Shown: one piece after another, positions 32,126-62,166 of the stretch
Layout: the number at the start of each line of letters is the position of its first letter
Position numbering within the stretch: the stretch's first letter is position 1
Assembly (NCBI RefSeq): GCF_902167145.1
Contig: NC_050097.1
Span: 169,972,923 to 170,036,922 of the forward strand
DNA: 64,000 nucleotides
Direction of reading: 5' to 3'
Source: Zea mays
Taxonomy: Eukaryota; Streptophyta; Magnoliopsida; Poales; Poaceae
Translations under genes and position numbers: made by a program
The notes under the pieces: generated by a model
Seen by the model: the letters and a program-made list of their open reading frames with translations, nothing else
What the model was told of the DNA's origin: nothing
Database searches by the model: none

Positions 32126-35100
32126 TTGCAGGTTTATGCATCCGAGGGCTCAAGCTGGATTATCGACAGCGGATGCACAAACCACATGACGGGGGAGAAG
32201 AAGATGTTCACCTCCTATGTCAAGAACAAGGATTCCCAGGATACGATTATCTTTGGAGATGGGAACCAAGGCAAGGTCAAAGGCTTGGGAAAGATAGCCA
32301 TCACAAATGAGCACTCTATCTCTAATGTATTTTTAGTAGAGTCGCTAGGCTATAATCTCCTGTCTGTTAGTCAATTGTGCCACATGGGCTACAATTGTTT
32401 GTTTACAAATGTTGATGTATCTGTCTTTAGAAGGAGTGATGGTTCATTAGCATTTAAGGGTGTACTAGATGGCAAACTCTACTTAGTTGATTTTTCGAAA
32501 GAGGAGGCCGATCTAGATGCATGCTTAATCGCTAAGACTAGTATGGGCTGGCTGTGGCATCGCCGTCTAGCACATGTTGGGATGAAGAACCTTCACAAAC
32601 TTCTAAAGGGAGATCATGTGTTAGGACTAACAAATGTATGCTTCGAAAAAGATAGACCTTGTGCAGCATGTCAGGCAGGAAAACAAGTGGGAAGCACTCA
32701 TCACAACAAAAATGTGATGACAACATCAAGACCACTGGAGCTACTACATATGGACCTCTTCGGACCTGTCGCCTACCTCAGCATCGGGGGAAGTAAGTAT
32801 GGTCTTGTTATTGTTGATGATTTTTCCCGCTTGACTTGGGTATTCTTTTTGTAGGATAAATCAGAAACCCAAGGGACCCTCAAGCGCTTTCTAAGGCGAG
32901 CTCAAAACGAATTTGAGCTCAAGGTGAAAAAGATTAGAAGCGACAACGGGACCGAGTTCAAGAATCTTCAAGTGGAAGAGTACCTTGAGGAGGAAGGGAT
33001 CAAGCACGAGTTCTCTGCTCCCTACACACCACAGCAAAACGGTGTGGTAGAGAGGAAGAACAGGACACTTATTGACATGGCAAGAACGATGTTTGGAGAG
33101 TTCATGACGCCCGAGCGGTTTTGGTCGGAAGCTATGAACACAGCTTGCCACGCCATAAACAGGCTCTATCTTCATCGCCTCCTCAAGAAGACCTCGTATG
33201 AACTTCTGACTGGTAACAAACCCAACGTCTCATACTTTCGTGTATTTGGGAGCAAATGTTACATTCTAGTGAAGAAAGGTAGAAGTTCTAAATTTGCTCC
33301 CAAAGCTGTAGAAGGGTTTTTACTAGGTTATGACTCAAATACAAAGGCGTATAGAGTCTTCAACAAATCATCGGGTTTGGTTGAAGTCTTTAGCGACGTT
33401 GTATTTGATGAGACTAATGGCTCTCCAAGAGAGCAAGTTGATCTTGATGATATAGATGAAGATGATGTTCCAACGGCCGCAATACACACCATGGCGATTG
33501 GAGATGTGTGACCACAAGAACAACAAGATCAACCTTCTTCATCAACAATAGTGCACCCCACAACTCAAGAAGATGAACCGGTTCATCAAGAAGAGGCGTG
33601 TGATCAAGGGGGAGCACAAGATGATCAAGTTATGGAGGAAGAAGCACCACAGGCCCCTCCAACTCAAGTCCGAGCGACGATTCGAAGGAATCATCCCATC
33701 GACCAGATTCTGGGTGATATAAGCAAGGGAGTAACCACTCGCTCTAGATTAGCTAATTTTTGTGAGCATTACTCATTTGTCTCTTCTATTGAGCCTTTCA
33801 GGGTAGAAGAGGCCTTGCTAGATCCGGACTGGGTGTTGGCCATGTAGGAAGAGCTCAACAACTTCAAGAGGAATGAAGTTTGGAGCTTGGTGCCACGTTC
33901 CAAGCAAAACATTGTGGGAACCAAGTGGGTGTTCCGCAACAAGCAAGACGAGCACGGGGTGGTGACAAGAAACAAGGCTCGACTTGTGGCAAAAGGTTAT
34001 GCCCAAGTCGCAGGTTTGGATTTTGAGGAGACTTTTGCTCCTGTGGCTAGGCTAGAGTCTATTCGCATTTTGTTAGCCTATGCCGCTCACCATTCTTTCA
34101 GGTTGTTCCAAATGGATGTGAAGAGTGCTTTCCTCAACAGGCCAATCAAGGAGGTGGTGTATGTGGAGCAACCCCCTGGCTTTGAGGATGAACGGTACCC
34201 CGACCATGTGTGTAAGCTCTCTAAGGCGCTCTATGGACTTAAGCAAGCCCCAAGAGCATGGTATGAATGCCTTAGAGATTTTCTAATTGCTAATGCTTTT
34301 AAGGTTGGGAAAGCCAATCCAACTCTTTTCACTAAGACTTGTGATGGTGACCTATTTGTGTGCCAAATTTATGTCGATGACATAATATTTGGTTCTACTA
34401 ATCAAAAGTCTTGTGAGGAGTTTAGCAGGGTGATGACACAGAAATTTGAGATGTCAATGATGGGCGAGTTGAACTACTTCCTTGGGTTCCAAGTGAAGCA
34501 ACTCAAGGACGGCACCTTCACCTCACAAACGAAGTATACGCAAGATCTTCTCAAGCGGTTTGGGATGAAGGACGCCAAGCCCGCGAAGACACCAATGGGC
34601 ACCGACGGACATGTCGACCTCAACAAAGGAGGTAAGTCCGTTGATCAAAAGGCATACCGGTCTATGATAGGATCCTTGCTTTATTTATGTGCTAGTAGAC
34701 CGGATATTATGCTAAGCGTATGCATGTGTGCTAGATTTCAATCCGATCCAAGGGAGTGTCACCTTGTGGCCGTTAAGCGAATTCTTAGATATTTAGTTGC
34801 TACGCCTTGCTTCGGGATCTGGTATCCAAAGGGGTCTACCTTTGACTTGATTGGATATTCAGACTCCGATTATGCCGGGTGCAAGGTTGATAGGAAGAGT
34901 ACATCAGGGACGTGCCAATTCCTAGGAAGGTCCCTGGTGTCTTGGAGTTCTAAGAAACAAACCTCTCTTGCCCTATCCACCGCTGAGGCCGAGTACGTTG
35001 CCGCAGGACAGTGTTGCGCGCAACTACTTTGGATGAGGCAAACCCTCCGGGACTTTGGCTACAATCTGAGCAAAGTCCCACTCCTATGTGACAATGAGAG

Positions 35101-35323
35101 TGCAATCTGCATGGCGGATAATCCTGTTGAACACAGCCGCACTAAGCACATAGACATCCGGCATCACTTTTTGAGAGACCACCAGCAAAAGGGCGATATC
35201 GAAGTGTTTTATGTTAGCACCGAGAACCAGCTAGCCAATATCTTTACCAAGCCTTTAGATGAGAAAACCTTTTGCAGGCTACGTAGTGAGCTAAATGTCT
35301 TAGATTCGCGTAACATGGATTGA
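32126..35323 (+). pseudogene. Copia pol of element G (PR-IN-RT-RH, three stops)
   Basis: A single frame holds, in order: protease (WIIDSGCTNHMTG, Asp at 32165); integrase zinc-binding region (LWHRRLAHVGMKNLHKLL) and core (HMDLFGP, SDNGTEFKN, QQNGVVERKN); reverse transcriptase ([18 protein letters not shown] with aspartates at 34376-34381); and RNase H ([13 protein letters not shown]). It ends at 35321-35323. Three nonsense codons break it: TAG 32852-32854, TGA 33509-33511 and TAG 33845-33847. The last is CAG in element B (4616-4618). There are no frameshifts in pol. Order protease-integrase-RT defines Ty1/copia. Confidence 0.92.
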
Positions 35324-36087
35324 TCTATAGCATACATGTGTTTTATGCCTTTGATCATGTTACCTTATGCATTTATATGATTTATTGCTTATTAATGGTG
35401 CTCAAGTTGTGCAAGAAATCCCCGGACCTCACAAGTCCATGTGTGAGTGATGCTCATATTTAGGGGAAGTTGTGCTACAACTTGACCCCTTGAGACTAAC
35501 CATGTGTTTGAGTTTACTTGATTTCGTCTCAAGAGTGAATTGAAAGTGAAAGGTGAACTTGGACCATGCAAGACTTCCACTGCACTCCGATGTGAGGGTA
35601 ATTAACTCCAAGTTCATATCTATGCTCTCATTGCCTTTTTGCTCTTAATTGACAATTTTGGTGAGGCAATGGGGTTAAAGGGCCAAGATTGATCACGTTT
35701 TGGTGCTTAATGCCAAAGGGGGAGAAAATAAGGTCAAAGCAAATGGATCAACTACCACTTGTGAAATTTTAAAAGAAAGAGTAGAGTAGAATTTTTTATT
35801 TTACTCTTACTATCAAAAATTGGTCTCTTGTGGGGAGAATGTTTGATTATGGGAAAAGGGGGAGTTTTGGCTCTTAATCATTTTTACTCTTAGATTATCT
35901 CTCTTTGTGCCTAAACATGTGTGTTTGACTTAGAGATAGGAAAATGAATTTGATTTGCAAAAACAAACGAAGTGGTGGCAAAGAACGATCCAAATATGTC
36001 AAATCTTGTCAAAGACTATTTTTGTTCTCAATTGCATTGATGTTGCACTTCTATTTATTGCTTTTTGATGTGTTGGCATAAATCACC
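35324..36087 (+). other. Element G 3' noncoding region
   Basis: About 760 bp without an ORF; contains repeated GGGGGAG purine runs and matches the same region of element B (6092-6875). No env-like reading frame is seen. Confidence 0.6.
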
Positions 36088-36100
36088 AAAAAGGGGGAGA
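36088..36100 (+). other. Polypurine tract of element G
   Basis: AAAAAGGGGGAGA ends one base before the 3' LTR start at 36102. Confidence 0.8.
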
Positions 36101-36101
36101 T

Positions 36102-37374
36102 TGAAAGGGAAATGTGCCTTTGGGCCATTTCAAGTATATTTTGGTGATTAAGTGTCCAACACATATTAAGTGGGTTATTATATGCCAAATGATGAATGAA
36201 GTGCAAATCAACAAGAAGGTATGATTCTAGACTTAGTACATTAGTTTTTGTGTACTAATATATTTGTCTAAGTGCTACAATCAGAGAAAAGAAAAGAAAA
36301 GAAGAGAAGAACTTGGCTCGAAGCAGCCAAGACTCTGCTCAGTCTGGCACACCGGGCTGTCCGGTGGTGCACCGGACAGTGTCCGGTGCGCCAGGCTGGC
36401 TTCCGGCGAACTGGCTCCTCTCGGGAGTTTCTGGCGGCGTACGGCTATAATTCACCGGACTGTCCGGTGGTGCACCGGACTGTCCGGTGAGCCAACGGCC
36501 GCCAGCGCAACGGTCGGCCGCCAAATCCGTGGGCGACGCATGGCCCGCTCCAACGGTCGGCAAGGGGCACCGGACTGTCCGGTGTGCACCGGACAGTGTC
36601 TGGTGCGCCAACTTCCAGAGGACTACAACGGTCGGCTGCGCCAGGAATGGAAGGAAATCGCGCACCGGACATGAACAGTGGTTGTCCGGTGGTGCACCGG
36701 ACTGTCCGGTGCGCCATCCGACAGAAGGCAAGAATTGCCTTCCAAGAATGCCTCCAACGGCTCTTAGCTACCTTGGGGCTATAAAAGGGACCCCTAGGCG
36801 CATGGAGGAAGCATCCAAGCATTCTTTGATCATTCCTAAGCATCAAGACTCCATTCTCGCGCATTCGATTCTTTGAGATAGTGACTTGAGCTCCAATTGA
36901 ATAGAGAACTCCTTGAGTTGTGTTTTGAGCTTAAGTTGCGGCTTGTGTGCGTGATTGTGCTCTGGTTTTGAGTCTTATGTGTTGCTCTTCCCTCCCTTAC
37001 TTCCGTGCTTCTTTGTGATCATCAATTGTAAGGGCAAGAGGCTCCAAGTTGTGGAGATTCCTCGCAAACGGGAGAAAGTATAAGAAAGAAGAACACCGTG
37101 GTATTAAAGTTGATCATTGGATCACTTGAAAGGGGTTGAGTGCAACCCTCGTCCATTGGGACACCACAACATGGAAGTAGGCAAGTGTTATACTTGGCCG
37201 AACCACGAGATAACTCGCGTGTCTCTTGTGATTGCTTTTCCGTGTGATTATTGTGACTCACAAGAGCTTGATCTATAGCCACTTGATTTTATCATTCTAA
37301 CACTTAACCAAGTTTTGTGGCTATTAGTTGTTGAATTTTATAGGATCACCTATTCACCCCCCTAGGTGCTCTCA
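36102..37374 (+). repeat. 3' LTR of element G (1273 bp)
   Basis: Pairs with the 5' LTR; TATAAAAG at 36780-36787. It keeps several palindromic CCGGAC/GTCCGG motifs intact where the 5' LTR has T or A, and a few the other way round. Confidence 0.94.
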
Positions 37375-37379
37375 GGCAG
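37375..37379. repeat. Target site duplication of element G (right)
   Basis: GGCAG, pairing with 28439-28443. Confidence 0.9.
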
Positions 37380-45633: not shown

Positions 45634-46276
45634 TGTTGGAGACTTGTTCTCAAATGCTATGAATTAAGAACAAGGCAACATAAAATGTTAAATATAAAAG
45701 CCCCTTCGTCTTTCGAAGCATTATTTCCCTCTGGATATAATGGATTTCGGACGAAGGTTATGAAGGTCACACCTTCATAATCATAATAAAAGATAAGAGA
45801 AATTTATACATAAAACACGGAAAATAACATGATTACTTTGAACATCATTATTAATTTATTCCTATTTATTTTGCTTATATAAACAACATATTACAAATGT
45901 ACCTTCGGCTTGAAGGAAAGTAAGGGTACAAGCGTGATGCTAATGCCAAGTCAGCATGAACAGTACGAGAGTACTGTTCATCTATTTATAGGCACGGGAC
46001 GCAGCCCGTGTAAAATTACATTAATGCCCTTTACATTTATCAATAACTCTATCGTAATTCTTCGAGGTCTAATTCGACTTTTCATCTTTAAGTCGGTTCC
46101 CCTTTCCTGCTGCCATGCCGAAGCTTTTCTACGCATAGCTTCGTGATTGTTTTAACCTTCGTCATGATCACCTTCGCATCTTACTCAAGCTTCGTCTTAC
46201 CTGTTCACATATTTCACTTGGAAAACATTGTCAAATTATGTTTTTGAGGACCTTCGGAAGCCGAAGGCCCCCAACA
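45634..46276 (-). repeat. 3' LTR of element E (643 bp)
   Basis: On the minus strand it begins TGTTGGGGGCCTTCGGC and ends GTCTCCAACA. Homologous to the LTR of element A in opposite orientation. Near its start lies the perfect inverted repeat CCTTCGG-AAG-CCGAAGG. Confidence 0.88.
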
Positions 46277-46288: not shown

Positions 46289-46431
46289 AATATCAATTTG
46301 CTGTAATGATAAATTCATATTGCGATATGGACGAAGGCCTTAAGCCGAAGGTCCAAAAAAACACCTTCTCTTTGCTAGAATAGCAACAGTCTTTGACAAG
46401 CGGGACCCTCCAGTTTGCAACGCACTAGATG

Positions 46432-46439
46432 TATAAATA
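46432..46439 (+). promoter_or_regulatory. Putative TATA box of the element E antisense gene
   Basis: TATAAATA, 152 bp before the ATG at 46584; matches the site in element A. Confidence 0.6.
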
Positions 46440-46583: not shown

Positions 46584-49500
46584 ATGTCTGAAGATAAAAA
46601 AGCCGTTGGTGATTCGAAGCTAAGTCTTTCTGAGGAAATGCATCTGGGCTTTCTTCAATCAATGTCAAAGACTAATACAGAGAAGATTACTAAAGAGATT
46701 CTGGAGGGTTTATCTGAAGATACTGGTGCTAGTGACAGTTTTGATGCGGATAGTGGTGGTGAAGAGTCCGAAGATCGACCGTGGCGACCAAGTCACACAG
46801 TCTTCGGAAAATCGAGCATCAAGCAGAGTCATCTTGATAGCATGAAGGGAAGGTATTTTCGAGACATGTCTATTGTGAGGGCAGATGCCAGGGAGAAGAC
46901 TACGCCTACTCCCGAAGAGAACGAAGTCGTAATCTTTCGAAGCTTCTTGAAGGCTGGGCTGCGATTTCTTTTAAGCAGTTTTGTCGTGGAAGTACTGAAG
47001 ATATTTGAAATCTACCTTCATCAACTTACTCCGGAATCAATCATAAGGATGGGCATCTTCGTCTGGGCCGTAAGGAGCCAAGGTTTAGAACCAAATGCAA
47101 AAAGTTTCTGCAACATACATGAGTTATTGTACGAGACAAAGCCCTAGGGTAAAGAACAGTATCACAACAACTTCGGTTGCTACATCTTCGGCTCCCGGTC
47201 TGGGTCAAGCTGCCCCGTGCCAACCTTTCGAAAAAGGTGGCCCGGCGACTGGATGACGGAATGGTTTTACGTGAAGAATGATTTGAAATTACAGGAAGAT
47301 ATTAAAAGTATCATTATGCGCCCCATCTGGCAACGCTTCGGACTGCGGAGGCCGAAGGTGGAAATGAATGAAGTAGCCGAAAAATGCCAGAGAGCCTTCG
47401 GTGTTGTTTCCTCTTTTATTGGGACAAGGGATCTAGTTCAAGAACATGTTGCCTTCAGAATATGGCCACTTGTGGAAAAATGGGAGATGCCGAAGGAGAC
47501 CATTAAAGAAACTGACGAAGGTGGACTAGTCAGGTTGAAATACACATTTAAATACGGAGATAAATTCGTTGAGCCAGATGATGACTGCTTGAAAAGTATT
47601 GAGGCCATCAGTGATGAATTACTTGGTGTATACTCAAAGGCCGAAGATACTGCATTATCGGCGGCCTTCGGAGGCCGAAAAAGGAAAAGGCTTAACCGAG
47701 TATTTGATGCAATTGGGTTTGTCTACCCCGACTACCATTATCCAGCACGGGGTGAAAAAAGAAAGAAAACATCTTCTGCGAAGGAAACTGCTTCAGCCGC
47801 TCCTAGCGAGCCAGCACCAAAGAGGAGAAGGGTAAAAGTTCTCACACACCGGTCACGTTATATTGAACCGGCCACAGTGCCTGCATTTGTCGGTGGAACT
47901 CCTTCGGCCACTGAAGCTAAAGAGACAGCTCCCCTGCCAAATATTGAAGGGCTGGCCGAAGTGCCAGTGACTGAAAAATAGAAGAAACGAGGGCTGAAGA
48001 AGTAAAGTCATCAGAAATCTTGAGTCCTTCGGCGAAAACTGAGGCAACAAAAAGCCAAAAGGGTCCAGCAGTGACCCCTAAAAGAAAAAGGATGGTTAAT
48101 GTGCTAGATGTTTTAGAGACAATCAAATCTTCAAGCACAACTCCAAAGAAAATTGCTAAAACTTCCGAAGTGCACACTGAAACCTTTGACGCCGAAGCTT
48201 CAAAGCCTCAGTCTGAAACTGAAGTCGGGCCTTCAGAGCCCACCAAGGTGAAATCCTTGGAGACTGAAAAACAGAAATAGCAGAACAAATTTTGGCTGAA
48301 GAAACTGGCACTGCTGCCCCCGAAGCATCTTCCAAAGTATTTGATTATATTGTACGACATGCTTCGGGGAAGAAATTATCTGAAGAAGAAATTTTTGAAG
48401 CTAGTCACTATGCCCGAGAACTGAAGTATCCGAAAGGGGCCTTAGTATTCAACGGCACAGATGAAGATGACTTCTTATACTGCCTCCCAGACAACAAAGA
48501 ATTATCTGTCTGCCGGGAGATGGCTAGAAGCATGGGGTTCCCGAAGCTTGAAGCTGGGCTCTGCGCTATGACGAAGGACGATCTTGCGGATAGCCTTGCA
48601 TATAATAGTCTGAAGGTATGAAAATTGTATATTTGGAAATTTGTAATTTTTGAATCATTCTTTTATTCTTATACTAATTCTTTTTTCATATAGGGTTTAA
48701 TACTGAGCAACGCTTTGAGAGCACAAAAGAATGCCGAAGACGAGAGCTATAATATTGCTTTCAACAACCTACGAACGGAGGTTATTAAGCTGAGGAACGA
48801 AGCTTTGGAAAAAGATAAGATTCTGCTTACATTGGTGGATAAAATAAAGGAAGACGAAGCTACCTCCAAGGCTCAAGCTGAGGCCCAAAAACGCGAAATT
48901 CAGGATCTTCGGAAACAGCTGGCCAGAGCTAAAGAAGAACGCATACTTGAAGAAACAAAACGAGAACTTAGTGATCAATGGGTGAATCATTTGGAAATAA
49001 ATGTTGAAGAGCTTCGTGCGGCCAAGAAAAGGTGCTATGACAAATCCACAGAGTGTGTTAAGAAGATAAAATCCAGCTTCGCCAGCGTTGGCGCATTTTC
49101 TAGCGAAGAAAGTTTTTCAAGGGGGAATCCAGAAGGCCCGATTGAATGGATCAGTCACGAAATTGAGGCCTTCGAAGAAATCTTGAATAGTCGCGGAGAC
49201 ATATGTGCTTTTTCAGGCGCCAGGGGGATTGCTACTGTTCTGGAAAGAAAAGGCTGTGATCATGTGAAATTTTTAGCGCAATCCGAAACTACCTTGTCTT
49301 CCGAAGATATAAAAGACCCCTCGGCCGAAGCAAGCCTTGTCGGTGGGAAATTTTTCACCGACATCTGGGACAATGGTGGCCGGGAAGTGGCCAAAGAAAT
49401 TATTCAAAAAAGCGAAAAAGACATCCATGATGCTAGAAAAATAGCTGAAGCTGCTGAAAAATGCGCAGAGCCCGAAGGGCAAATAGGTATTAACTAGTGG

Positions 49501-49716
49501 TTTTTATTCTGTTGTAATTTTTGATTTCAAACTTTGTTCGCGGTTTGTAATAGTAATATAGCTGTATCTTCTCCTCCCTCAGAACCTGCTGAGGCATCTC
49601 CGGGCCCCCACCCGAAGGGGGACAACGAAATTATAAAAATGGCCGAAGCCATCATGGACAAAGTTGTCGATCAGCTACTGAACGAAGCTACAGAAGTAGT
49701 TCTTAGGGAAGATTAA
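46584..49716 (+). pseudogene. Antisense spliced ORF (aORF) of element E, Transposase_28-like
   Basis: Runs opposite to the element. Exons 46584-48615, 48694-49486 and 49583-49716, with GT-AG introns of 78 and 96 bp at the same places as in element A. Exons 2 and 3 are 793 and 134 nt, exactly as in A. The N-terminus (MSEDKKAVG) is followed by the Transposase_28-like domain with WMTEWFYVKND, an acidic middle and a helical C-terminal part ending VVLRED. Lesions are all in exon 1: TAG at 47145-47147 (TGG in A), TAG at 47979-47981, and frame changes near 47985 and 48280. Exon 1 is 86 nt shorter than in A. Confidence 0.82.
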
Positions 49717-50151
49717 ATGCTATTGTAAAAACATTTGGAATGTAACATGTGTAATACTTTGTAACTTTGAATGTAATATTTAATCTATTTATGGTTCAAT
49801 TCTTTACGATGCATGAAATTTTGCATACATACCATTTTTTGAGCCTTCGGCGAAAAAACACCTTCCCTTCTTTTCATGCTTCGTGAAGAAAATCTTTTAT
49901 ATATCACAAGAATTTCCATACTTCTCTGATGAAGAATATCCAAGCTTCGTGAAAATGTTCTCCGAAGCTATAAAAAAGTTTTATGTTGTCTCTCTGATGA
50001 AGCTACACTTCTTCTCAATTTATCTTGTGGCTTAGCGCGATTTTCTCTTTTTCAAAACATTCTCCGAAGATCAATACTGTATCCCCTTCTTGTTCCACAT
50101 GCAATATGATGTATGATGTTTATGTTATGCAAGATGATGTGATGATGTTAT
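49717..50151. other. Element E noncoding spacer left of insertion H
   Basis: AT-rich; shares the words around CACCTTCCCTTCTTTTCATG with 60-100 of element A (opposite strand). It ends in a low-complexity ATGATGTT run where H inserted. Confidence 0.5.
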
Positions 50152-50156
50152 GTTAT
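50152..50156. repeat. Target site duplication of element H (left)
   Basis: GTTAT, identical to 62162-62166. Confidence 0.92.
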
Positions 50157-50630
50157 TGTCGGGGACCATAATTAGGGGTACCCTCAAGACTCCTAATTCT
50201 CAGCTGGTAACCCCCATCAGCATAAAGCTGCAAAGGCCTGATGGGTGCGATTAAGTCAGGGATCAGTCCATTCGAGCGACTCGATCACGCCTCGCCCGAG
50301 CCTAGCCTCGGACAAGGGCAGCCGACCCCGGAGGATTCCCGTCTCGCCCGAGGCCCCCCTCCAACGGCGAACATATTTCCGGCTCACCCGAGGCCCTGCC
50401 TTCGCTAAGAAGCAACCCTGACCAAATCGCAGGAGCATTTAATGCAAAGGTGGCCTGACACCTTTATCCTGACGTGCGCCCCCCGGCAGAGCCGAAGTGA
50501 CCGCCGTCACTTCGCCGCTCCACTGACCGGCCTGACAGAAGGACAGCGCCGCCTGCGCCACTCCGACTGCGGTGCCACTTGATAGAGTGAGGCTGACAGG
50601 CAGTCAGGCCCTGCCGAAGGCACCATAGGA

Positions 50631-51022
50631 AACTCCGCTCCGCCCGACCCAGGACTCGGACTCGGGCTAAGTCCCGGAAGACGGCGAACTCCGCTCCGCC
50701 CGACCCAGGGCTCGGACTCGGGCTCAGCCCCAGAAGACGATGAACTCCGCTCCGCCCGACCCAGGGCTCGGACTCGGGCTAAGTCCTGGAAGATGGCGAA
50801 CTCCGCTCCGCCCGACCCAGGGCTCGGACTCGGGCTAAGTCCCGGAAGACGACGAACTCCGCTCCGCCCGACCCAGGGCTCGGACTCGGGCTAAGTCCCG
50901 GATGACGACGAACTCCGCTCCGCCCGACCCAGGGCTCGGACTCGGGCTCAACCCCAGAAGACGACGAACTCCGCTTCGCCCGACCCTAGGGCTCGGACTC
51001 CGCCCTGGCCTCAGCCGACGAC
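50631..51022. repeat. 56-bp tandem repeat, seven units, in the H 5' LTR
   Basis: Units start with AACTCCGCT at 50631, 50687, 50743, 50799, 50855, 50911 and 50967. The 3' LTR has the same array from 60985. They lie upstream of the TATA box, where enhancer-like repeats are common in plant LTRs. Confidence 0.9.
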
Positions 51023-51499
51023 CTCCGCCTCGCCCGACCCAGGGGCTCGGACTCGGCCTCGGCCACGGAAGACAGACTCAACCTCGGCTTCGGAGGAGCT
51101 TCCACATCGCCCAACCTAGGGCGCAGGCCAGCCACGTCAACAGGAGGCGCCATCATCACCCTACCCCGAGCTGACTCGGGCCGCAGGAAACAAGACCGGT
51201 GTCCCATCTGGCTAGCTCCGCCAGATAGGCAATGATGGCGCCCCGCGTACTCTGTGACGACGGCGGCTCTCAGCCCCCTTACGGAAGCAAGAGGACGTCA
51301 GCAAGGACCCAACCGCTCCGACAGCTGTCCCTCCGCAAGGCTCCATCGCTCCTTCGACGGCCACGACATCACACCAGCTGGGTGCCAAAATCTCTCCGGC
51401 TGCCACAACGGCATGTACTTAGGGCGCTAGCTCTCCTCCGCTAGACACGTAGCACTCTGCTACACCCCCCATTGTACACCTGGATCCTCTCCTTACGCC

Positions 51500-51507
51500 T
51501 ATAAAAG
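51500..51507 (+). promoter_or_regulatory. TATA box in element H 5' LTR
   Basis: TATAAAAG; the copy in the 3' LTR is at 61853-61860. Confidence 0.6.
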
Positions 51508-51811
51508 GAAGGACCAGGGCCCTCTTAGAGAGGGTTGGCCGCGCGGGGACGAGGACGGGACAGGCGCTCGCTTGGGGCCGCTCGCTCCCTCTCCCGCGTG
51601 GACGCTTGTAACCCCCTACTGCAAGCGCACCCGACCTGGGCGCGGGACGAACACGAAGGCCGCGGGATTCCCACCTCTCTCACGCCGGTCTCCGGCCGCC
51701 TCGCTCTCCCCCCCCCTTCGCGCTCGCCCTCGCGCTCGACCCATCTGGGCTGGGGCACGCGGCGACACTCACTCGTCGGCCCAAGGATCCCCCGGTCTCG
51801 GAACGCCGACA

Positions 51812-51831
51812 GTTGGCGCGCCAGGTAGGGG
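51812..51831 (+). other. Primer binding site of element H
   Basis: GTTGGCGCGCCAGGTAGGGG directly follows the LTR. It is a typical TGG-type site of Tat-lineage elements; I cannot name the tRNA with confidence. Confidence 0.65.
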
Positions 51832-51871
51832 CCTGCTGCGTGTTGACGAACAGCTTCCCGTCAAGCTCCAG

Positions 51872-54800
51872 ATGGGCAGTCTCCAGCAACCTCTCCAACC
51901 CGGGACGGTGCTCCGTTTCGGGAGTCTTGAGTTCATGTCCCTCGACGGCGGCTATGACATGATACTCCTTCCGCCGCCGCGCGACAACGACAATGGCGAC
52001 CGACAACCCACCCGCCGGCGGCGGAATCGACGACGTCTTCCCCGCGTGGTGGAAGAACAACCTTCGAGCTCGTCCCGCCTACTTCCCCGCCGACGGAGGG
52101 GAAGGCAGGGCAACCAAGGCCAAGCAGGAGGCAACGCCTCGTCGGCTGTCGAGCGAGTCGACAGCGCCGGCACCCCAACGGGGGGCGCACCGGGTATCGA
52201 CTTCGCGCTTGAGACGAAGATGAGCGCCGTCTCCTCGCGACACGCCAGTCCCGAGCAAGCGGACTACGCCAGCGCGCTCGCGAAAAGCTTGCTGGACGTC
52301 ACCCTCATACCCGAGACGACGGTGCAGTCAGTCCCCGACGTGACTTTATCGCCGCTCGTCGACCAAGAGGTACCGACCGACTCCCATCCCACGTCATTTG
52401 GATTCAGCCTCAACCCGCCTAGCGACCTCGCTATGGCGGGCGCTCTCGTGGAGGCAAGTCCAAACCCTCTGGGGTTTTGCATGCGGTCGCCTTGGGACCG
52501 GCTGACGGGCGTCTCGACCTACGGGCCCTCTGGGTCCGAGGAAGACGACGACCCCAGCATCTGTTGGAATTTCTTTGGACTTGGCAACCCCAGTGCCATG
52601 CGGGACTTCATGACCGCATGTGACTACTGCCTCTCCGACTGTTCCGACGGTAGCCGCAGCCTCGACGACGAGGACTGCGGCCCAAGCCGCGAATGTTTCC
52701 ACGTCGATCTAGGGGGTCCCTCCGAAGGCAATCATCTCGGCATGCCGGAGGACGGTGATCTCCCTAGGTCGGTACCCCGCGTTGACATCCCACGGGAGCT
52801 AGCTGTGGTCCCCATTCAGGCGGGGGGGCACGACCCACAGCTCGAGCAAATCTACGGGGTGCAGGCCAGGCTCGACGAGGGAGCAGGAGCGCTTGATCCG
52901 ATCCGCCGGGACGTCGGGCAGGCATGGGCGGGCCAACCCCCGGCCGGAGAAATACGTCATCTGCCCTAGGGTTTCCAGCACCGCGTCGCAGACGACGTCA
53001 GGGTCAGGCCACCACCCGCATCTAGTGGGGTCGACCAGAACCTGGCTGCAGCAGCGATGCTTCTCCACGCAATGTCGGAGCCATCAACTACCGAGGGCCG
53101 GCGAATCCAGGGGGAGCTCAAGGATCTCCTGGAAGGCGCTGCGGTCCGACGGGCCGAGAGCTCTGCCTCCCGAAGGCAGGGGTACCCCTTGGAACCTCAT
53201 GCCGCGACTTCCCGATTCATGTGGGAAGCCTCGGTCTACACCGGGCGCACGCGCAACACCGCGCCTGCGGCCCCGGGCCGCCTCGGCAACGAGCACCATC
53301 ACCGCGACCGTCGGGCCCACCTCGACGAGAGGGTGCGCCGAGGCTACCACCCCAAGCGTGGGGGACGCTACGACAGCGGGGAGGATCGGAGTCCCTCGCC
53401 CGAGCCACCCGGTCCGCAGGCCTTCAGCCGGGCCATCCGACGGGCACCGTTCCCGACCCGGTTCCGACCCCCGACTACTATCACAAAGTACTCGGGGGAG
53501 ACGAGACCGGAACTGTGGCTCGCGGACTACCATCTGGCCTGCCAACTGGGTGGAACGGACGATGACAACCTCATCATCCGCAACCTCCCCCTGTTCCTCT
53601 CCGACACCGCTCGCGCCTGGTTGGAGCACCTGCCTCCGGGGCAGATCTCCAACTGGGACGACCTAGTCCAAGCTTTCGCCGGCAATTTCCAGGGCACGTA
53701 CGTGCGCCCCGGGAATTCCTGGGATCTCCGAAGCTGCCGGCAGCAGCCGGGAGAGTCCCTCCGGGACTACATCCGGCGATTCTCGAAGCAGCGCACCGAG
53801 CTGCCCAACATCACCGACTCGGATGTCATCGGCGCGTTTCTCGCCGGCACCACCTGCCGCGACCTGGTGAGCAAGTTAGGTCGCAAGACCCCTACCAGGG
53901 CGAGCGAGCTGATGGACATCACCACCAAGTTCGCCTTCGGCCAGGAGGCGGTCGAGGCTATCTTCCGAAAGGACAAGCAGCCCCAGGGCCGCCCATCGGA
54001 AGATGCTCCCGAGGCGTCAACTCAGCACAGCGCCAAGAAGAAAGGCAAGAAGAAGTCGCAAGCGAAACGCGACGCCGCCGACGCGGACCTTGTCGCCGCC
54101 GCCGAGTACAAGAACCCTCGGAAACCCCTCGGAGGTGCCAACCTCTTCGACAAGATGCTCAAGGAGCCGTGCCCCTATCATCAGGGGCCCATCAAGCACA
54201 CCCTTGAGGAGTGCGTCATGCTTCGGCGCCACTTCCACAGGACCGAGCCACCCGCGGAGGGTGGCAGGGCCCGCGACGATGACAAGAAGGAAGATCACCA
54301 AGCAGGAGAGTTCCCCGAGGTCCGCGACTGCTTCATGATCTACGGTGGGCAAGCGGCGAATGCCTCGGCTCGGCACCGCAAACAAGAGCGCCGGGAGGTC
54401 TGCTCAGTGAAGGTGGCGGCACAAGTCTACCTAGACTGGTCCGACAAGCCCATCACCTTCGACCAAGCCAACCACCCCGACCACGTGCCGAGCCTGGGGA
54501 AATACCCGCTCGTCGTCGACCCCGTCATCGGCGACGTCAGGCTCACCAAGGTCCTTATGGACGGAGGCAGCAGCCTCAACATCATCTACGCCGAGACCCT
54601 CAGGCTCCTGCGTGTTGATCTGTCCTCCGTCCGAGCAGGCGCTGCGCCCTTCCATGGGATCATTCCCGGGAAGCGCGTCCAGCCCCTCGGACAACTCGAC
54701 CTCCCCGTCTGCTTCAGAACACCCTCCAACTTCCGAAGGGAGACCCTGACGTTCGAGGTGGTCGGGTTCCGAGGTACCTACCACGCGGTACTGGGAAGGC

Positions 54801-55141
54801 CATGCTACGCGAAGTTCATGGCCGTCCCCAACTACACCTACCTGAAGCTCAAGATGCCGGGCCCCAACGGGGTCATCACCATCGGCCCCACGTACAAACA
54901 CGTGTTCGAATGCGACGTGGAGTGCGTGGAGTACGCCGAGGCCCTCGCCGAATCCGAGGCCCTCATCGCCGACCTGGAAAGCCTCTCTAAGGAGGTGCCA
55001 GACGTGAAACGTCATGCCGGCAACTTCGAGCCTGTGGGGAAGGAACACTTGTCATCGCACAGCACCCCGATCCCTTGTTGGGGGCACCCGGAGGCTACAC
55101 GCACCCCCGGGAAGGAACACTTGTCATCGCCAAAGTTCTGA
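51872..55141 (+). CDS. Gag-protease ORF of element H (one stop)
   Basis: One frame of 1090 codons from the ATG at 51872; the reading frame is open further into the LTR, which is not coding. The first third is acidic and low in known domains. The gag domain (WLADYHLACQLGG, FAGNFQGTYVRPG) lies at about residues 540-660. A CHC-type metal-binding segment (CPYHQGPIKHTLEEC) lies near 54170, and the protease (LMDGGSSLNIIYAETL) near 54555-54605. A TAG at 52967-52969 breaks the frame between the N-terminal part and gag proper; the sequence on both sides is in the same frame, and the codon fits a CAG origin. The protein ends early at 55141, where pol is deleted. Confidence 0.85.
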
Positions 55142-55230
55142 AGCTCAAAACGTACAAGCTGGCCAACAGTCAAGGCGAGGTCTACGGCAACGCTTGGAAC
55201 ATCCGACAGCTACGTCGCTTCTACTCTTAA
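55109..55230 (+). pseudogene. Integrase tail left after pol deletion in element H
   Basis: Immediately after the protease region a different frame reads KLANSQGEVYGNAWNIRQLR and stops at the TAA at 55228-55230. This is the usual C-terminal end of Tat-type polyproteins. Everything between protease and this tail is missing. A 22-bp word is present on both sides of the join (55037-55058 and 55109-55130). Confidence 0.75.
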
Positions 55231-55700
55231 GATGTTGTCAAGTTGTTCGTATACCTCGCTCCCACGAAGTCCTAGTCGTCAAGGAAGGGTCAGCCTCGCC
55301 TCGGCAGAGCCTGACCCTCCCTCGGGGGCTAAAAAGGGGGGAACCCCTCTGCGTCAAGATTGGGGAACCTCTCTGCGTCCAAAATTTTCAATCAAAAAGG
55401 CTTTTGCGTTCCCCGGCTATGTCAGAAGCAGGACCCCAAGGAGCGAACGCGGGTGCATGTAAGTGGCAGGGCCAACTGAGCCGAGGGACTCCCATGCCTC
55501 CGGGTTAGGGACACCTCACTCGTCACCCGCCACGAAAAGTGACCCCTACTTGGGGAAGCCACCCTGCTACTAACAGGCCAATCCGGACACGCAAAATAAA
55601 AGGAAAAGGAGTACGACTTCATGCAACGGTAACAAAGTGTTCAGGCCTCAGCGGCCGCAGAAAGACACACGCGCATCCAACAGAAACTGTTCCAACAGAG
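55231..55700. other. Element H spacer between pol tail and antisense gene
   Basis: About 470 bp with no credible ORF; GC-rich, with GGGGGCT and GGGGAAC words. Confidence 0.45.
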
Positions 55701-58700
55701 TTAGGCGTCGCCTTGGGAAGGAGTCGTGCCTTCAGCTCTGTCCTCACCTTCGGCAAAGTCCATCTCGGCTTCCGGCGACGGCGCAGGTGGGAGGATCTCC
55801 GCCTCAAAGGTGGTCGCCAGCACTGCGCTCGGACCCGTGGCGGCCGCATCGAGCCTCTAGACTTCTGCCAGGGCGGCTTCATCTTCGTCAGGAAGGCAAT
55901 ACCCCTCGCTAACCTGCTCCAGGTCCACAACATAGTGGGAAGCGAGCACGGCGAAGGCCCACCTGACGCCGTGGTGTAACGCCTCGCGGAGTCTGCCGCG
56001 CACATGATCGCCCAAGACTTGAAGGCGGCTTTGAGGAGAGCTTCCTGAGGGGACGTCGCCGGAGCCAAGGACCCGGTAAACGTCTGAGATGGCTTCGGAC
56101 ATGGCCACGTGGTCGGCCTCCCTCTACTCGGCCGCCCCGGCAAGCGCCTCGGCAAGCGCCTTGGCGGACTCATCAAGGGCGGACTCGAGCTCTGCGAACA
56201 GCCAGAAGAAAGATCTCAAACACAAGCAGAGGAAACAAACAGGAACGAAGACCAAGGATGGCCAAGACGTACCTCCGGCTCGGGCACGCTGCTCCGAGGC
56301 TGCGACCTAGGCTACGGCTAAGTCGGCTGCAAGGGTTTCAACCCGGCTTTCGGCCTCGGCAGCCTGGCCTCGAGATTGGTCCCGCTCCTCGACGACCCGG
56401 TCGAACTCCGACCGCTGTCGTTGCGCTTCCGCGCGCGCCGCGGCTGCCTCCGCGCGCGCCGATGCCGCCTCGGCTCTCAGATCGGTGTAGAGCAACTGAA
56501 GGTCCGCTACCTCGGCACCCTGCTGAGAGAGGCGCGCAGTAGCCCCGGCGAGCGAGGTCCTCAGGGATCGCAGCGAGCCCCAGACGTCGACCTCACGGCG
56601 GATGAACGACGACTTGACGGTGCTCCGATCCGTCAGATCCTGAGGGAAGGAAGCGGGGCATCACGAAAGACGCCCTGGTCACAGAAGAAAAAAGGTATGC
56701 CTGAAACCGTTACCTGGAGGATTTTGGGAACGTCCCTGCAGAAAACCTCCAGCGACGACCGGAGCGACCCCACCGTTGATTCGGCACATTCGCGGAGCTC
56801 GTCCCAGGACTGGTCCTCCCATTCATCATCGAGAACGAAGACGGGATCTGAGGCCTCACGGGTCCGGAACCGGAGCAGCTGGCGCCGGCCCTCGGAGCTC
56901 CGCCGCACAGCGACGAGGCTGCCGCCCGGCGGGACGGATCGCGTCTCCACGCCCCCCTCTTCCGAGGCACCAGGCGCCGACGCATCAGCCGTCTCAACGT
57001 CGGCAGCAACCGGTCGCTTTCCGACTGGGACGGCGACGACTTCAGTAGCGGCAGGCGCCGGCATGGCCGGCACGTCCGGTGGGCTCGGGGCTACGTCCGC
57101 GTCAGCCGCCTCCCCTATCACAATGGCTGCCTCGGCGGAAGAGCCAGCCTCGGGAACCCGCTCCACGGCGACTGGTGCCGCCTGAGCCCCCTGCTGCGGA
57201 ACGCCTTGCGAGAAGGTCGGCTGAACGGCAAGGCCCAGAGCGGCGCTGGCCACGCAAGCCGGCGCCGTCTTAAGGGCCTTCCGGGGTGCCAGGTCGGTCA
57301 GGCCATGGCTCCGCTTGCTGAGGGAAAAAGGAAAATCACGACTGGGATGTATGAATGAAAAGCCAGGACGAAGACATTCCGAGACACTTACCCGCTCCGG
57401 GCCATGATCAACCGTGCCTTGGGGGAAGTCTCTTGGATCTCGTCCCCCGGAACCGCCCCCGAGGTCCGCTTCACCGGCAGCTTCGGCACCACCCTTGCTT
57501 TGAGCGCCCTGGACGCCCGGGGGGCGGACCGCCCAGGCACTGTCACGGCGACCTGAGGGTCGCTCCCCTGCGCTGCCGGCGCGGGCGGCGGCTCTCGGGG
57601 AGCAGATGCTCCGGCCTGGCTCCCCGGGGTCGCCTCAGCTCTTCCAGCCGAGGGGTCAGGCACCCTCTCGGATTGCCCCCGCCCCTCGGGCCGGGACCCC
57701 GGCGTCCCGACTCCGGGGACTGACGGCATCAGCCCGCTCGGGGGCTGGTTTGATGGCTCCTGGCCAAACCCCAAGCCGGGGCTGAGGCCGAGGCGGGCAG
57801 CCATGTCGTCCTCCTCGTCATCATCTTCATCATCGTCGTCGTCGTCGGGCGTTTCCGGCGACGGCTCCCTCGGGAGCCCCTCCCTCTCCTGCCGGCGACG
57901 AAGCTTTTCCAAGGCGTCTCGAGCCCGCCTCCGCTCGCGGGCCCGGGCCTTCTCCGCGTCCTTCTTCTTCTTCTTCTCCTCCGCGGCGACCCGCCGCGCT
58001 GCTCGGTCCACCGCATCCTGTGGGACCCGTGGCGGGGAAGGCTTGTGCCACCCCACCTCCTGAAGAAGGGGGAAAACCCCAATCGTAAGAACCAGGAGCA
58101 ACCCGATGCGAGAGAAGGGAAGAAGCGGACACTCACCAGAGTCACGCACCCTTGGTCTAGGCGCATCAAAAGCTGGGAGAAGGCGTTGGGGTCCGGCTTC
58201 CCCAACGCGACGGACACCCGCCCGTGGAGGACGTCGAAGGGAAGAGGATCATAGGACATCCGCGAGCCCTCCAAGTCAGCCTCCGGTGTCATCTCCCAAA
58301 GCGACAGCCGTCGCTCCGCCAAGGGAAGCACCCTCCGACGGTGGATGGCGGCAATCACTCCCGCAGCGGTGAGTCCCCCCTTCTGATATGCCTCCAAGGC
58401 CTGGAGAAGGGGTTCGAGGTTCTTTTGTCTTTCGTGCGGGGTCCCGTGGCGCCAAGCATCGGTGGCGGTGGTGACTACTCGCTGGGAGAACGGCGGGAGC
58501 AACTCGCCGTCATTCCGGAGGTAGAACCACTGGCGCTGCCACCCCTTGTTCGAGGACGCGAGGATGGCAGGAATATACAGCGACGCCCGCGACTGCCTCA
58601 GCAGGAGGGTGCAGCCGCCGGCCCGCACCGCTGCGCGGACCTTCCTCTCCCCGTCGGCGAGGCAAAAAGCTCCGCGAAAAAGAGATGGGTCCACAAATCC

Positions 58701-59053
58701 CAATGGGGGGCGATCCCCAAGTACCCCTCGCACACCGCTACGAAGATGGCGGCCTGCGAGATGGAGTTGGGGGTGAGGTTGTGCAACTCCACCCCGTAGT
58801 GGTGCAGGATCGCCCGCATAAAGCGGCTCGCCGGCACACCAAATCCCCGCTCGTGGAAGGAGACGAAGCTCACGATGTACCCCGGCGGTGGGGACGGAGC
58901 GGCTCCGCCCACAGGAGGAATCCATTCCGGTCGCTGCTCATCGGTGAGAGGGCGAAGTAAACCCTCGCCAACAAGATCCTCCAGATCGCCCACCGTCACC
59001 GTGGAAAAAGACCATAGGTCGCGCGGCGAGATGATGGTCCCCCTGTCAGCCAT
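55701..59053 (-). pseudogene. Antisense five-exon gene (aORF) of element H, Transposase_28-like
   Basis: On the minus strand: exons 59053-58137, 58059-57392, 57317-56714, 56639-56273 and 56191-55701. GT-AG introns of 77, 74, 74 and 81 bp join in phase throughout. Starts MADRGTIISPRDLWS; the N-terminal domain contains PASRFMRAILHHYGVELHNL and WFYLRNDGELL, as in Transposase_28 proteins. Then come a K/E/R-rich helix, an acidic run, proline-rich stretches, a coiled coil (exon 4) and a conserved C-terminal part (HHGVRWAFAVLASHY, exon 5). Lesions: a one-base loss in exon 1 near 58665, and TAG codons at 56307-56309, 56124-56126 and 55857-55859. Exons total 3047 nt, close to the 3045 nt of element A. 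Confidence 0.82.
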
Positions 59054-59189
59054 CACCAAGCGGAAGGGGTGGCGGCGCGAGGGGCAGGAAGGGCGGTTTC
59101 CTCTTCTCTGGCTAACTCTCGCGGGTTGCGAAAACCTAAGAGGGAGGCAGGAAGCGGAGCAAAGAACCGTCACCGGACCCTCTCCCGGG

Positions 59190-59198
59190 TATATAAAG
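59190..59198 (-). promoter_or_regulatory. Putative TATA box of the element H antisense gene
   Basis: CTTTATATA on the minus strand; its TATATA starts 142 bp before the ATG at 59053, close to the 150-152 bp seen in elements A and E. Confidence 0.5.
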
Positions 59199-59552
59199 AC
59201 CAAGGCGAGACCGGTTCAAACGTTCCGCCCGGACCAGACGCGGGATTCGAAAATGCAACGCGAAACAGCCGTTCCCCGGACGGCTCGCACACGCGCAACG
59301 GCCGCCACGCGAGCCACTCGCTCCGTCGCATTAACTCCGCGGCGGGACAGGCGACGCCTCTGGCAGGAGAAGCAGGCGACGCTTCGCCTTCGCCATAATG
59401 ACCGCGCCAAAAAAGGTACGCCGCGTCGTTCGATTTCGTATCCTTTTCCTTTTTTCCTCTTTCTCTCTCTCTCTTGCAACAGGGACCGGGAAAGGGGGAT
59501 ACCCCGAAAAGGATCCTTCCCCGTGAAGGAACCAGGCTTCGAGCCTCCCTAC

Positions 59553-59760
59553 TGATCAGAGGTTCGAAGGCTGGCCCCCCGGAAGGGTTCGACAGCCGCC
59601 TCAGATCGCGTGGGCACTACACCCACTACTGGTCAGAGGTTCGAAGGCCGGCCCCTCGGAAGGGTTCCACGGCCGCCTCAGGCTACTCGGGCTCCGTGCC
59701 CATTACTGATCAGGGGTTCGAAGGCTGGCCCCCGAAGGGTTCACAGCCGCCTCAGACGCC
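59553..59760. repeat. 77-bp tandem repeat, about three units, in element H
   Basis: Units start near GATCAGAGGTTCGAAGG at 59554, 59631 and 59708. They lie between the antisense gene and the 3' LTR, upstream of the antisense TATA box. Confidence 0.85.
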
Positions 59761-60473
59761 GAGCGAGGGATGACCATGGGTACGTTCGATACATAACCAA
59801 GGCTCGGGCTGCGCTCCCGAGGTACCCTAGGACATTTCCGAGACCAGCGGGAGCGATCTTGTAACGGAATCCCATCAGAGGGAGGCATCGAGCCCTCGGA
59901 CCCCGTCGCCAGGGGACCGGGTCCGGTAGATCACCCGCAGGTACTTTTGGGCGTGCCTCTGGGCCCCTAGCCGACCCCTAACGAACGGGGCACGGACGTC
60001 CACTCGGATTACCCGTTTGCAGCTCACCGGAGACACCATGTTCGACGCCCATCGAGGGCAACATGGCGCTTTCCCCCCCTCCTCAATGCGAAAAGGCGAC
60101 GCAGGGGCATATGTAAAAAAGCCGAGTCTGTCCCTGATCGCCCTCTCGCCCTGTGCAGAGGCTCGGGGGCTGCTCTCGCAAACCCGGCTCTGGCCGAACC
60201 GTTGACAGCGTCAACATACCAGCCCGAGAACTTGGGACCCGACCGTACACCCAGGCTACGGCCAGCTCGCATGAGGGAACAACCAGACCAGCCGAAGCAT
60301 TACGCAAGGCATTAAGACCTCGAAGGAGTGAAACCACTCCTCCGAGGCCTCGGGGGCTACACCCGGCGGGTGCGCTCGCGCGCACCCACCGGAACAAAAC
60401 GCAACCGAGAAAGGCTGGTCCCCTTGCAAAAAAGTGCGACGAAAGCCTCCAAGCGAGTGCTAACACTCCCTTC
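59761..60473. other. Element H noncoding region before the 3' LTR
   Basis: No credible ORF on either strand. GC-rich, with repeated CTCGGGGGCT words like those at the polypurine tract. Confidence 0.45.
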
Positions 60474-60489
60474 GAGGCTCGGGGGCTAC
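60474..60489 (+). other. Polypurine tract of element H
   Basis: GAGGCTCGGGGGCTAC directly abuts the 3' LTR start TGTCGGGG. Confidence 0.8.
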
Positions 60490-62161
60490 TGTCGGGGACC
60501 ATAATTAGGGGTACCCTCAAGACTCCTAATTCTCAGCTGGTAACCCCCATCAGCATAAAGCTGCAAAGGCCTGATGGGTGCGATTAAGTCAGGGATCAGT
60601 CCATTCGAGCGACTCGATCACGCCTCGCCCGAGCCTAGCCTCGGACAAGGGCAGCCGACCCCGGAGGATTTCCGTCTCGCCCGAGGCCCCCCTCCAACGG
60701 CGAACATATTTCCGGCTCGCCCGAGGCCCTGCCTTCGCTAAGAAGCAACCCTGACCAAATCGCCGCACCGACCGACCAAATCGCAGGAGCATTTAATGCA
60801 AAGGTGGCCTGACACCTTTATCCTGACGCGCGCCCCCCGGCAGAGCCGAAGTGACCGCCGTCACTTCGCCGCTCCACTGACCGGCCTGACAGAAGGACAG
60901 CGCCGCCTGTGCCACTCCGACTGCGGTGCCACTTGACAGAGTGAGGCTGACAGGCAGTCAGGCCCTGCCGAAGGCACCATAGGAAACTCCGCTCCGCCCG
61001 ACCCAGGGCTCGGACTCGGGCTAAGTCCCGGAAGACGGCGAACTCCGCTCCGCCCGACCCAGGGCTCAGACTCGGGCTCAGCCCCAGAAGACGACGAACT
61101 CCGCTCCGCCCGACCCAGGGCTCGGACTCGGGCTAAGTCCCGGAAGACGGCGAACTCCGCTCCGCCCGACCCAGGGCTCGGACTCGGGCTAAGTCCCGGA
61201 AGACGACGAACTCCGCTCCGCCCGACCCAGGGCTCGGACTCGGGCTAAGTCCCGGAAGACGACGAACTCCGCTCCGCCCGACCCAGGGCTCGGACTCGGG
61301 CTCAGCCCCAGAAGACGACGAACTCCGCTTCGCCCGACCCCAGGGCTCGGACTCCGCCCTGGCCTTAGCCGACGGCCTCCGCCTCGCTCGACCTAGGGGC
61401 TCGGACTCGGCCTCGGCCACGGAAGACAGACTCAACCTCGGCTTCAGAGGAGCTTCCACATCGCCCAACCTAGGGCGCAGGCCAGCCACGTCAACAGGAG
61501 GCGCCATCATCACCCTACCTCGAGCTGACTCGGGCCGCAGGAAACAAGACCGGCGTCCCATCTGGCTAGCTCCGCCAGATAGGCAATGATGGCGCCCCGC
61601 GTACTCTGTGACGACGGCGGCTCTCAGCCCCCTTACGGAAGCAAGAGGACGTCAGCAAGGACCCAACCGCTCCGACAGCTGTCCCTCCGCCAGGCTCCAT
61701 CGCTCCTCCGACGGCCACGACATCACACTAGCTGGGTGCCAAAATCTCTCCGGCTGCCACAACGGCATGTACTTAGGGCGCTAGCTCTCCTCCGCTAGAC
61801 ACGTAGCACTCTGCTACACCCCCATTGTACACCTGGATCCTCTCCTTACGCCTATAAAAGGAAGGAACAGGGCCCTCTTAGAGAGGGTTGGCCGCGCAGG
61901 GACGAGGACGGGACAGGCGCTCGCTTGGGGCCGCTCGCTCCCTCTCCCGCGTGGACGCTTGTAACCCCCTACTGCAAGCGCACCCGACCTGGGCGCGGGA
62001 CGAACACGAAGGCCGCGGGATTCCCACCTCTCTCACGCCGGTCTCCGACCGCCTCGCTCTCCCCCCTTCGCGCTCGCCCTCGCGCTCGACCCATCTGGGC
62101 TGGGGCACGCGGCGACACTCACTCGTCGGCCCAGGGACCCCCCGGTCTCGAAACGCCGACA
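60490..62161 (+). repeat. 3' LTR of element H (1672 bp)
   Basis: Pairs with the 5' LTR; differs by a short insertion near 60760-60785, a few small indels and scattered substitutions. The 56-bp repeats run from 60985. Confidence 0.94.
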
Positions 62162-62166
62162 GTTAT
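62162..62166. repeat. Target site duplication of element H (right)
   Basis: GTTAT, pairing with 50152-50156. Confidence 0.92.

Follow-up and report, generated by a model that had tools for sequence, protein, structure and literature searches.

The window analysed here is a stretch of 64,000 nucleotides (nt) from Zea mays (contig NC_050097.1, positions 169,972,923 to 170,036,922 of the forward strand), in which two long terminal repeat (LTR) retrotransposons, designated A and E, carry a second gene on the strand opposite to their own. Both are copies of a single high-copy family of LTR retrotransposons, with gag and without pol. Element E lies on the minus strand and its second gene on the plus strand, i.e., antisense; the gene begins about 300 base pairs (bp) from the 3' LTR and reads toward gag, and A presents the mirror image. 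Both copies of the gene follow the same plan of three exons, which is very probably spliced and whose coding frame bears the marks of long purifying selection. The predicted parts of the two genes and the neighbouring features are the following (positions are those of the window):

46584 to 48615, plus strand: E antisense gene, exon 1, with PF04195 (E = 1.8e-10); broken in this copy
48616 to 48693, plus strand: E intron 1, 78 nt, GT..AG, 53% T
48694 to 49486, plus strand: E exon 2, 793 nt, coiled-coil region
49487 to 49582, plus strand: E intron 2, 96 nt, GT..AG, 47% T
49583 to 49716, plus strand: E exon 3, 134 nt including the stop, C-terminal VVLRED
46432 to 46439, plus strand: TATA box TATAAATA of E, between the 3' LTR and the gene, 152 nt 5' of the ATG
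45634 to 46276, minus strand: 3' LTR of E, 643 bp, TG..CA
1345 to 3462, minus strand: A antisense gene, exon 1, 2118 nt, 706 codons open
1255 to 1344, minus strand: A intron 1, 90 nt, GT..AG
462 to 1254, minus strand: A exon 2, 793 nt, with one in-frame stop
370 to 461, minus strand: A intron 2, 92 nt, GT..AG
236 to 369, minus strand: A exon 3, 134 nt, C-terminal VVLRED
3605 to 3612, minus strand: TATA box TATAAATA of A, 150 nt 5' of the gene's ATG
3769 to 4422, plus strand: 3' LTR of A, 654 bp

Exon structure of the two copies

Alignment of A with E together with a check of the boundaries confirmed what a preliminary description of this DNA had reported, namely introns at the same sites, an exon 2 of exactly 793 nt and an exon 3 of exactly 134 nt at the positions listed, and near-identical ends, VVLRED closing both genes. 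Exons 2 and 3 aligned without a gap over 793 and 134 nt at 76–80% identity. Intron 1 was 57% identical with 44 gap columns, its length being 78 nt in E and 90 nt in A, while intron 2 measured 96 and 92 nt, respectively; all four introns start with GT and end with AG. Intron 2 was 76% identical with 6 gap columns and thus as similar as exon 2, so the conservation of length says little for exon 2 over intron 2. The preliminary description had taken the exact exon lengths as the sign of long selection for protein; this argument is weak, and the selection itself is borne out by the frame-specific signal described below. It had also stated that exon 1 has drifted, which is true of the length of its low-complexity middle and not of its three open pieces, which are constrained about as much as exon 2. 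Chance as the source of the shared exon structure was set aside in view of the absence of gaps over 927 exon nt in combination with the frame-specific signal.

Exon 1 of E is broken by in-frame stops at 47145–47147 and 47979–47981 and by a change of frame before 48292, and A carries a single stop, at codon 902 of the spliced frame, within exon 2. Since both copies are broken, the window holds a record of past selection and no working gene: neither copy can now encode the protein.

The exons are under selection in the spliced frame

The ratio of non-synonymous to synonymous substitution rates (dN/dS) between A and E was estimated by the NG86 method, with dS in exons 1 and 2 near saturation and the ratios rough. 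It was 0.061, 0.10 and 0.12 in the three open pieces of exon 1, 0.053 in exon 2 and 0.20 in exon 3 (the last from 43 codons only). For gag, the comparison of E with an A-like copy at another genomic locus (L059) gave 0.085 and 0.108. Both wrong frames of exon 2 and one wrong frame of exon 3 had dN greater than dS, and fourfold sites differed between A and E by about 0.72–1.2 substitutions.

Of the 34,779 first-look candidates from a genome search with E exon 2, 145 copies were scored, and in 108 of these 145 exon 2 had no stop (hand count). Thirty loci, ranked by the similarity of their exon-2 protein to E, were fetched; L029 is E itself, the near-identical (by look) L024 and L025 were both retained, and the A-like copies sampled were A and the one in L059. 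A variant was regarded as shared when at least three copies carried it, and ratios were calculated as (N/sites)/(S/sites). Shared variants numbered 43 synonymous and 12 non-synonymous in exon 2 (ratio 0.074), and 13 and 10 in exon 3 (ratio 0.22), the latter from the 27 loci whose exon 3 is 134 nt long, leaving out three of 175, 133 and 133 nt. In the other frames the shared-variant ratio was 0.89–3.3. Singletons, which mostly arise after insertion, were nearer neutral, with 0.41 in exon 2 and 0.74 in exon 3, and the difference between shared and single variants was highly significant in exon 2 (Fisher's test, p = 7e-7). When all 30 loci were taken, exon 3 gave 0.23 for shared variants and 1.34 for singletons, the latter inflated by the length-changed copies. 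The last 324 nt of exon 1, counted without the loci having an exon 1 stretch of 700 nt or less, showed ratios of 0.35 (shared) and 0.72 (singletons). In this comparison by exon with further genomic copies, as proposed in the preliminary description, the ratios of shared variants were well below 1 in the spliced frame. Because the purifying signal is specific to the spliced codon frame, these results support the view that the antisense gene is a real protein gene which has been under long purifying selection of about the strength acting on gag.

The same frame specificity bears on a different explanation, in which the conserved thing would be a sense or antisense RNA, acting in packaging or in regulation by double-stranded RNA (dsRNA), and no protein would be made. 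The non-coding flanks are indeed conserved, the 3' flank (49717–49890 in E, 235–55 in A) being 88% identical between A and E and its conservation reaching 0.98 around a 17-mer described below, and a dsRNA role for antisense transcripts has been proposed (PMC7264820). An excess of synonymous changes in one frame only, however, is not expected from a role of RNA or DNA, and we regard this explanation as very improbable.

Evidence for splicing

Among the 30 loci, intron 1 had GT in 29 and AG in all 30, and intron 2 had GT in all 30 and AG in 29. The introns of A and E contained 41–53% T, compared to 18–23% in the exons, and intron 1 occurred in lengths of 77, 78, 80 and 92 nt, steps that are not multiples of three. 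A search for proteins related to A exon 1 found 1941, of which 120 were listed; a motif search located the exon end in 80 of these 120. Immediately after it, 79 of the 80 had V (a GTN codon), beyond which the residues diverged, and 50 of the 80 stopped within three residues. At the other side of the intron, in relatives where intron 1 happens to read through, the residue preceding exon 2 was Q, as from a CAG acceptor, in 41 of the 46 that show the site. As for intron 2, in E it keeps the frame but contains in-frame stops, and in A the frame differs too; exon 3 can therefore not be read from exon 2 without splicing. The first ATG of exon 3 lies about 20 codons in, and the frame in which exon 3 is constrained is the one that splicing would join to exon 2. 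Collectively, conserved splice sites, the logic of frames and stops and the T-rich introns support the spliced structure, and the antisense gene is very probably spliced.

These data also allowed us to weigh the reading in which the exons are separate unspliced open reading frames (ORFs), either exon 1 alone or exon 1, intron 1 and exon 2 together, with the "introns" as spacers. Exon 1 by itself is an ORF of roughly 700 residues, and in one survey the antisense ORFs have been annotated as separate units (PMC11963269). Furthermore, intron 1 of A is a multiple of three without a stop, so A alone cannot tell this intron from exon, and a second search found intron 1 to read through in frame in 23 of the 120 listed relatives as well; an unspliced reading of exons 1 and 2 is thus possible in A and in those 23. 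However, the spliced frame is the constrained one in exon 3, although this exon is cut off by stops and starts without an early ATG. The conservation of exon-1 relatives ceases at the GTN codon, the introns are rich in T, and intron 1 has length steps that are not threes. The same plan is seen in a second family and in a single copy of a third element (see below). Separate unspliced ORFs are therefore unlikely.

The genome contained 989 unspliced exon 1-intron 1 sites of the E type, whereas no exon 1-exon 2 or exon 2-exon 3 junction was found in it within 3 mismatches. The absence of genomic junctions would agree with the sense RNA being what is copied, a strand on which these introns are not introns.

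The predicted protein

The product of the antisense gene is predicted to have about 1014 residues. Its N-terminal part contains PF04195; a basic middle of low complexity follows, then a coiled coil and finally a short C-terminus that is conserved. PF04195 scored 41.3 and 42.4 bits against a cut-off of 26.2, and it was the only Pfam domain above cut-off in exon 1; in exon 2 no Pfam domain was above cut-off, and bZIP was absent from the Pfam results for both exons and for relatives. The structure model of exon 2 was a single helix of 130 residues, with block means of the predicted local distance difference test (pLDDT) of 77–96 over the first 120, while that of exon 1 (pLDDT of 31) was of no use. 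A sequence search of PDB identified no solved relative, its one match having E = 0.39, and Foldseek with the exon 2 model gave no match. Exon 1 also contains basic stretches, PKRKR among them, that resemble nuclear signals.

An element with gag and without pol

Further features of A and E, and the element inserted in E, are listed below:

62748 to 63998, minus strand: gag of E, in pieces 63609–63998 and 62748–63437, Retrotrans_gag 1.1e-5
50154 to 62164: element D, inserted in E, GC-rich, with 56-bp tandem repeats
46356 to 46372, plus strand: 17-mer AAAAAACACCTTCTCTT, 5' of the E TATA box
49853 to 49869, plus strand: copy of the 17-mer, 3' of the E gene, where conservation of the 3' flank is highest
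3688 to 3672 and 92 to 76, minus strand: sister copies of the 17-mer in A

The gag of E lies on the far side of element D from the antisense gene. In L059, an E-like copy runs straight across the insertion point of D: L059 positions 1–446 match E 49711–50156, and positions 442–959 match E 62162–62686. This copy, which lacks D, shows that D is an insertion and that, leaving D out of the count, about 1 kb separates gag from the antisense gene in E. The A-like copy in L059 has an LTR at 956–1618, followed after 67 bp by a gag ORF of 508 residues (1685–3211; PF03732, 1.4e-18), the end of which is about 1 kb from the end of its antisense gene. On its gag side, E follows this order up to the edge of the window. 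The space of about 1 kb from gag to the antisense gene leaves no room for pol in these two copies (E and the A-like copy of L059), and A runs off the window. As regards a placement with the Retand lineage by reverse transcriptase, the gap of about 1 kb contains no reverse transcriptase in either of the two copies.

The 3' LTRs of A and E are 71.6% alike. A short tandem repeat at 62229–62445 adjoins the gag of E and is present in both L059 elements too. The A-like element of L059 (442–1700) is nested in the gag side of the E-like element, before its gag, so that the family is nested in itself. Abutting the 3' LTR of A, the stretch 4423–8080 represents remains of another element (copia-type by eye) with an 87% match to 33649–37375, and A was probably inserted in these copia-type remains.

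The 17-mer AAAAAACACCTTCYCTT flanks the antisense gene on both sides, in A as well as in E. At up to 2 mismatches it had just these four matches in the 64 kb, against 0.05 expected. Its downstream copy was found in 28 of the 30 E-like loci (including E), where it lies in the top-conserved 20-nt bin of the 3' flank. The 17-mer is possibly a binding site for the gene's own product.

A second family and element D show a similar plan

The best genome matches to PF04195 were listed at 150 places, from which 20 were hand-picked and fetched; 19 of them align to the locus L018, and L009, which is 41% identical to L018 where the two were compared, was excluded. As far as sampled, the best matches mostly belong to another family, which has four exons (2274, 133, 188 and 462 nt in L018) and introns of 76, 83 and 81 nt; L018 is open over 1018 codons. 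Donor GT was present in 19, 19 and 16 of the 19 copies at the three introns, and acceptor AG in 18, 15 and 18. The AG of intron 2 is absent from the alignment at L012, L014, L016 and L017; at L014 this reflects, by eye, the pairwise alignment misplacing an in-frame deletion in exon 3, and the other three are assumed to be likewise. Shared-variant ratios in the spliced frame were 0.39, 0.21 and 0.15 (from 18, 14 and 16 of the 19 copies), compared to 1.2–1.6 in the other frames.

Element D, whose LTRs (50154–51814 and 60487–62164) are 96.7% alike, bears an antisense PF04195 gene as well (59215–58598, minus strand, 1.9e-22). A gap of 74 nt bounded by GT and AG (56713–56640), seen in this single copy, is likely an intron and is followed by a coiled-coil-like ORF. 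A PF04195 head with a coiled-coil tail in later exons may thus be general among such elements. This multi-exon plan of other PF04195 families, like the lack of pol, was absent from the preliminary description.

Observations that weigh against a spliced protein gene

Besides the similarity of intron 2 to exon 2, the open intron 1 in A and the 23 listed relatives, and the small number of exon 3 codons, several results weigh against the interpretation given here. With regard to selection, the second wrong frame of exon 3 had dN of 0.18 and dS of 0.41, and the difference between shared and single variants in exon 3 had a Fisher p of 0.08. The ranking of loci by exon-2 similarity biases the exon-2 singletons down, exon 3 being unaffected by it. 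The 3' flank is more conserved between A and E than fourfold coding sites are; in fact, differences in intron 1 (0.65), intron 2 (0.29), the 5' flank (0.31) and the 3' flank (0.13) were all below those at fourfold sites, and so either non-coding parts are constrained too or they were exchanged between subfamilies. In the second family, exon 2 is the weakest case, with no difference between shared and single variants (p = 0.79), and no TATA box was found within 400 nt of the ATG in 15 of the 20 loci (where that start was found), so a TATA promoter is not general.

With regard to splicing, the exon end motif was missing in 40 of the 120 listed exon-1 relatives, which stand outside the boundary counts. 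A motif search found the spliced junction in none of 240 listed database proteins, and the spliced region of the second-family protein scored nothing among 7990 candidates; these nulls are weak, since the databases appear to hold mainly single-frame ORFs taken from DNA. Finally, the absence of spliced junctions from the genome is equally expected if nothing is spliced.

Relation to known antisense genes

Antisense ORFs with TRP28 (PF04195) near the 3' LTR were described in the Retand lineage by Vicient (2025; PMC11963269), a survey that scored single ORFs, found antisense PF04195 ORFs in 97% of recently active Retand clusters and listed "Smc" and similar coiled-coil-like antisense ORFs separately. 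The word "intron" does not occur in the available text of that paper, and PMC7264820 recommends a search for spliced antisense transcripts. Both are in agreement with the preliminary description, in which antisense ORFs were considered known and their splicing little described; in the open-access literature covered, a scope outside which the primary Grande gene23 paper lies, we recognised no description of introns in these antisense genes. Common to the Retand ORFs and the A/E gene are the antisense orientation, the position adjoining the 3' LTR, PF04195 and retention by elements with missing genes. In the survey, elements lacking gag or parts of pol retain the ORF, and the A/E family has gag and lacks pol. 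A further difference is that in A and E the portion with PF04195 and the coiled coil belong, as exons, to one gene. By inference, one multi-exon gene could explain the separate TRP28 and "Smc"-type ORFs of the survey. The kind of gene, an antisense PF04195 gene, is thus known, and its exon structure appears to be new.

Grande of maize carries gag-pol, unlike A and E. Its antisense gene (gene23), near the 3' LTR, is reported in a review to have its own promoter and to encode a nuclear protein (PMC7264820). The A/E gene resembles it in its orientation, its position beside the 3' LTR and its presumed accessory role; as regards promoter and location, what the A/E sequence shows is a TATA box and basic stretches. 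The LTRs and the element size of A and E presumably fit Zeon-1, a candidate name for the family. Zeon (GAG) and Cinful (POL) are partner elements in maize (PMC8547701, in the available text of which the word "antisense" is absent). The likeness of A and E to Zeon, that of a high-copy maize gypsy-type element with gag and without pol, is one of structure.

HBZ of human T-cell leukemia virus 1 (HTLV-1) is spliced and has a bZIP coiled coil. It is the nuclear product of an antisense retroviral gene (PMC11963269). The HTLV antisense promoter lies inside the 3' LTR (PMC7264820), whereas the TATA box of A and E lies between the LTR and the gene; moreover, the A/E gene has PF04195 in place of the bZIP. 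Introns also exist in the plant LTR retrotransposons Ogre and EVADE (PMC6317226, PMC12786077), but those of A and E lie in antisense, where passage through the genomic RNA cannot remove them. An origin by host-gene capture was set aside; PMC11963269 reports no similarity of TRP28 outside transposable elements.

Proposed explanation

The explanation that we favour as a whole, with a probability of about 0.7, is that A and E represent a pol-less element with a spliced antisense gene, transcribed from its own promoter and encoding a nuclear accessory protein. Most likely, RNA polymerase II would transcribe the gene from its TATA promoter beside the 3' LTR, and the transcript would be spliced like that of a host gene. 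The introns would survive transposition because reverse transcription uses RNA of the other strand, on which they are not introns. The protein would most likely be an oligomeric nuclear factor that binds DNA or chromatin and favours its own element, for example by keeping the LTR promoter of the element active. Our best guess, with moderate confidence, is that this nuclear accessory factor serves the copy that encodes it.

A different role for the same spliced gene, in the traffic of particles or RNA through import of the pre-integration complex or through Rev/CERV-like export, is possible, though we consider it less likely. PMC7264820 favours roles of the retroviral accessory type, CERV of the nematode element Cer1 is reported to be needed for nuclear export of the genomic RNA (PMC10309623), and a pol-less element that keeps gag keeps the antisense gene too, which fits a packaging partner; on the other hand, an antisense promoter of its own would uncouple expression of the gene from that of gag.

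Beyond A and E, we give an even chance to a broader proposal, according to which the Retand-type antisense gene is one old multi-exon gene, with a PF04195 head and a coiled-coil tail, that surveys have cut into TRP28 and "Smc"-like ORFs. Antisense placement would preserve its spliceosomal introns through reverse transcription, and since the gene persists in pol-less elements under selection like that on gag, its product would have to favour the very copy from which it is made.

The exon model provided here yields a full-length protein and exact predicted junctions. If true, these elements would be a clean case of an RNA-copied element that carries introns on the strand which is not copied, and the persistence of the gene in a gag-only element, with selection on it about as strong as that seen for gag, points to a function that prefers to act in cis.

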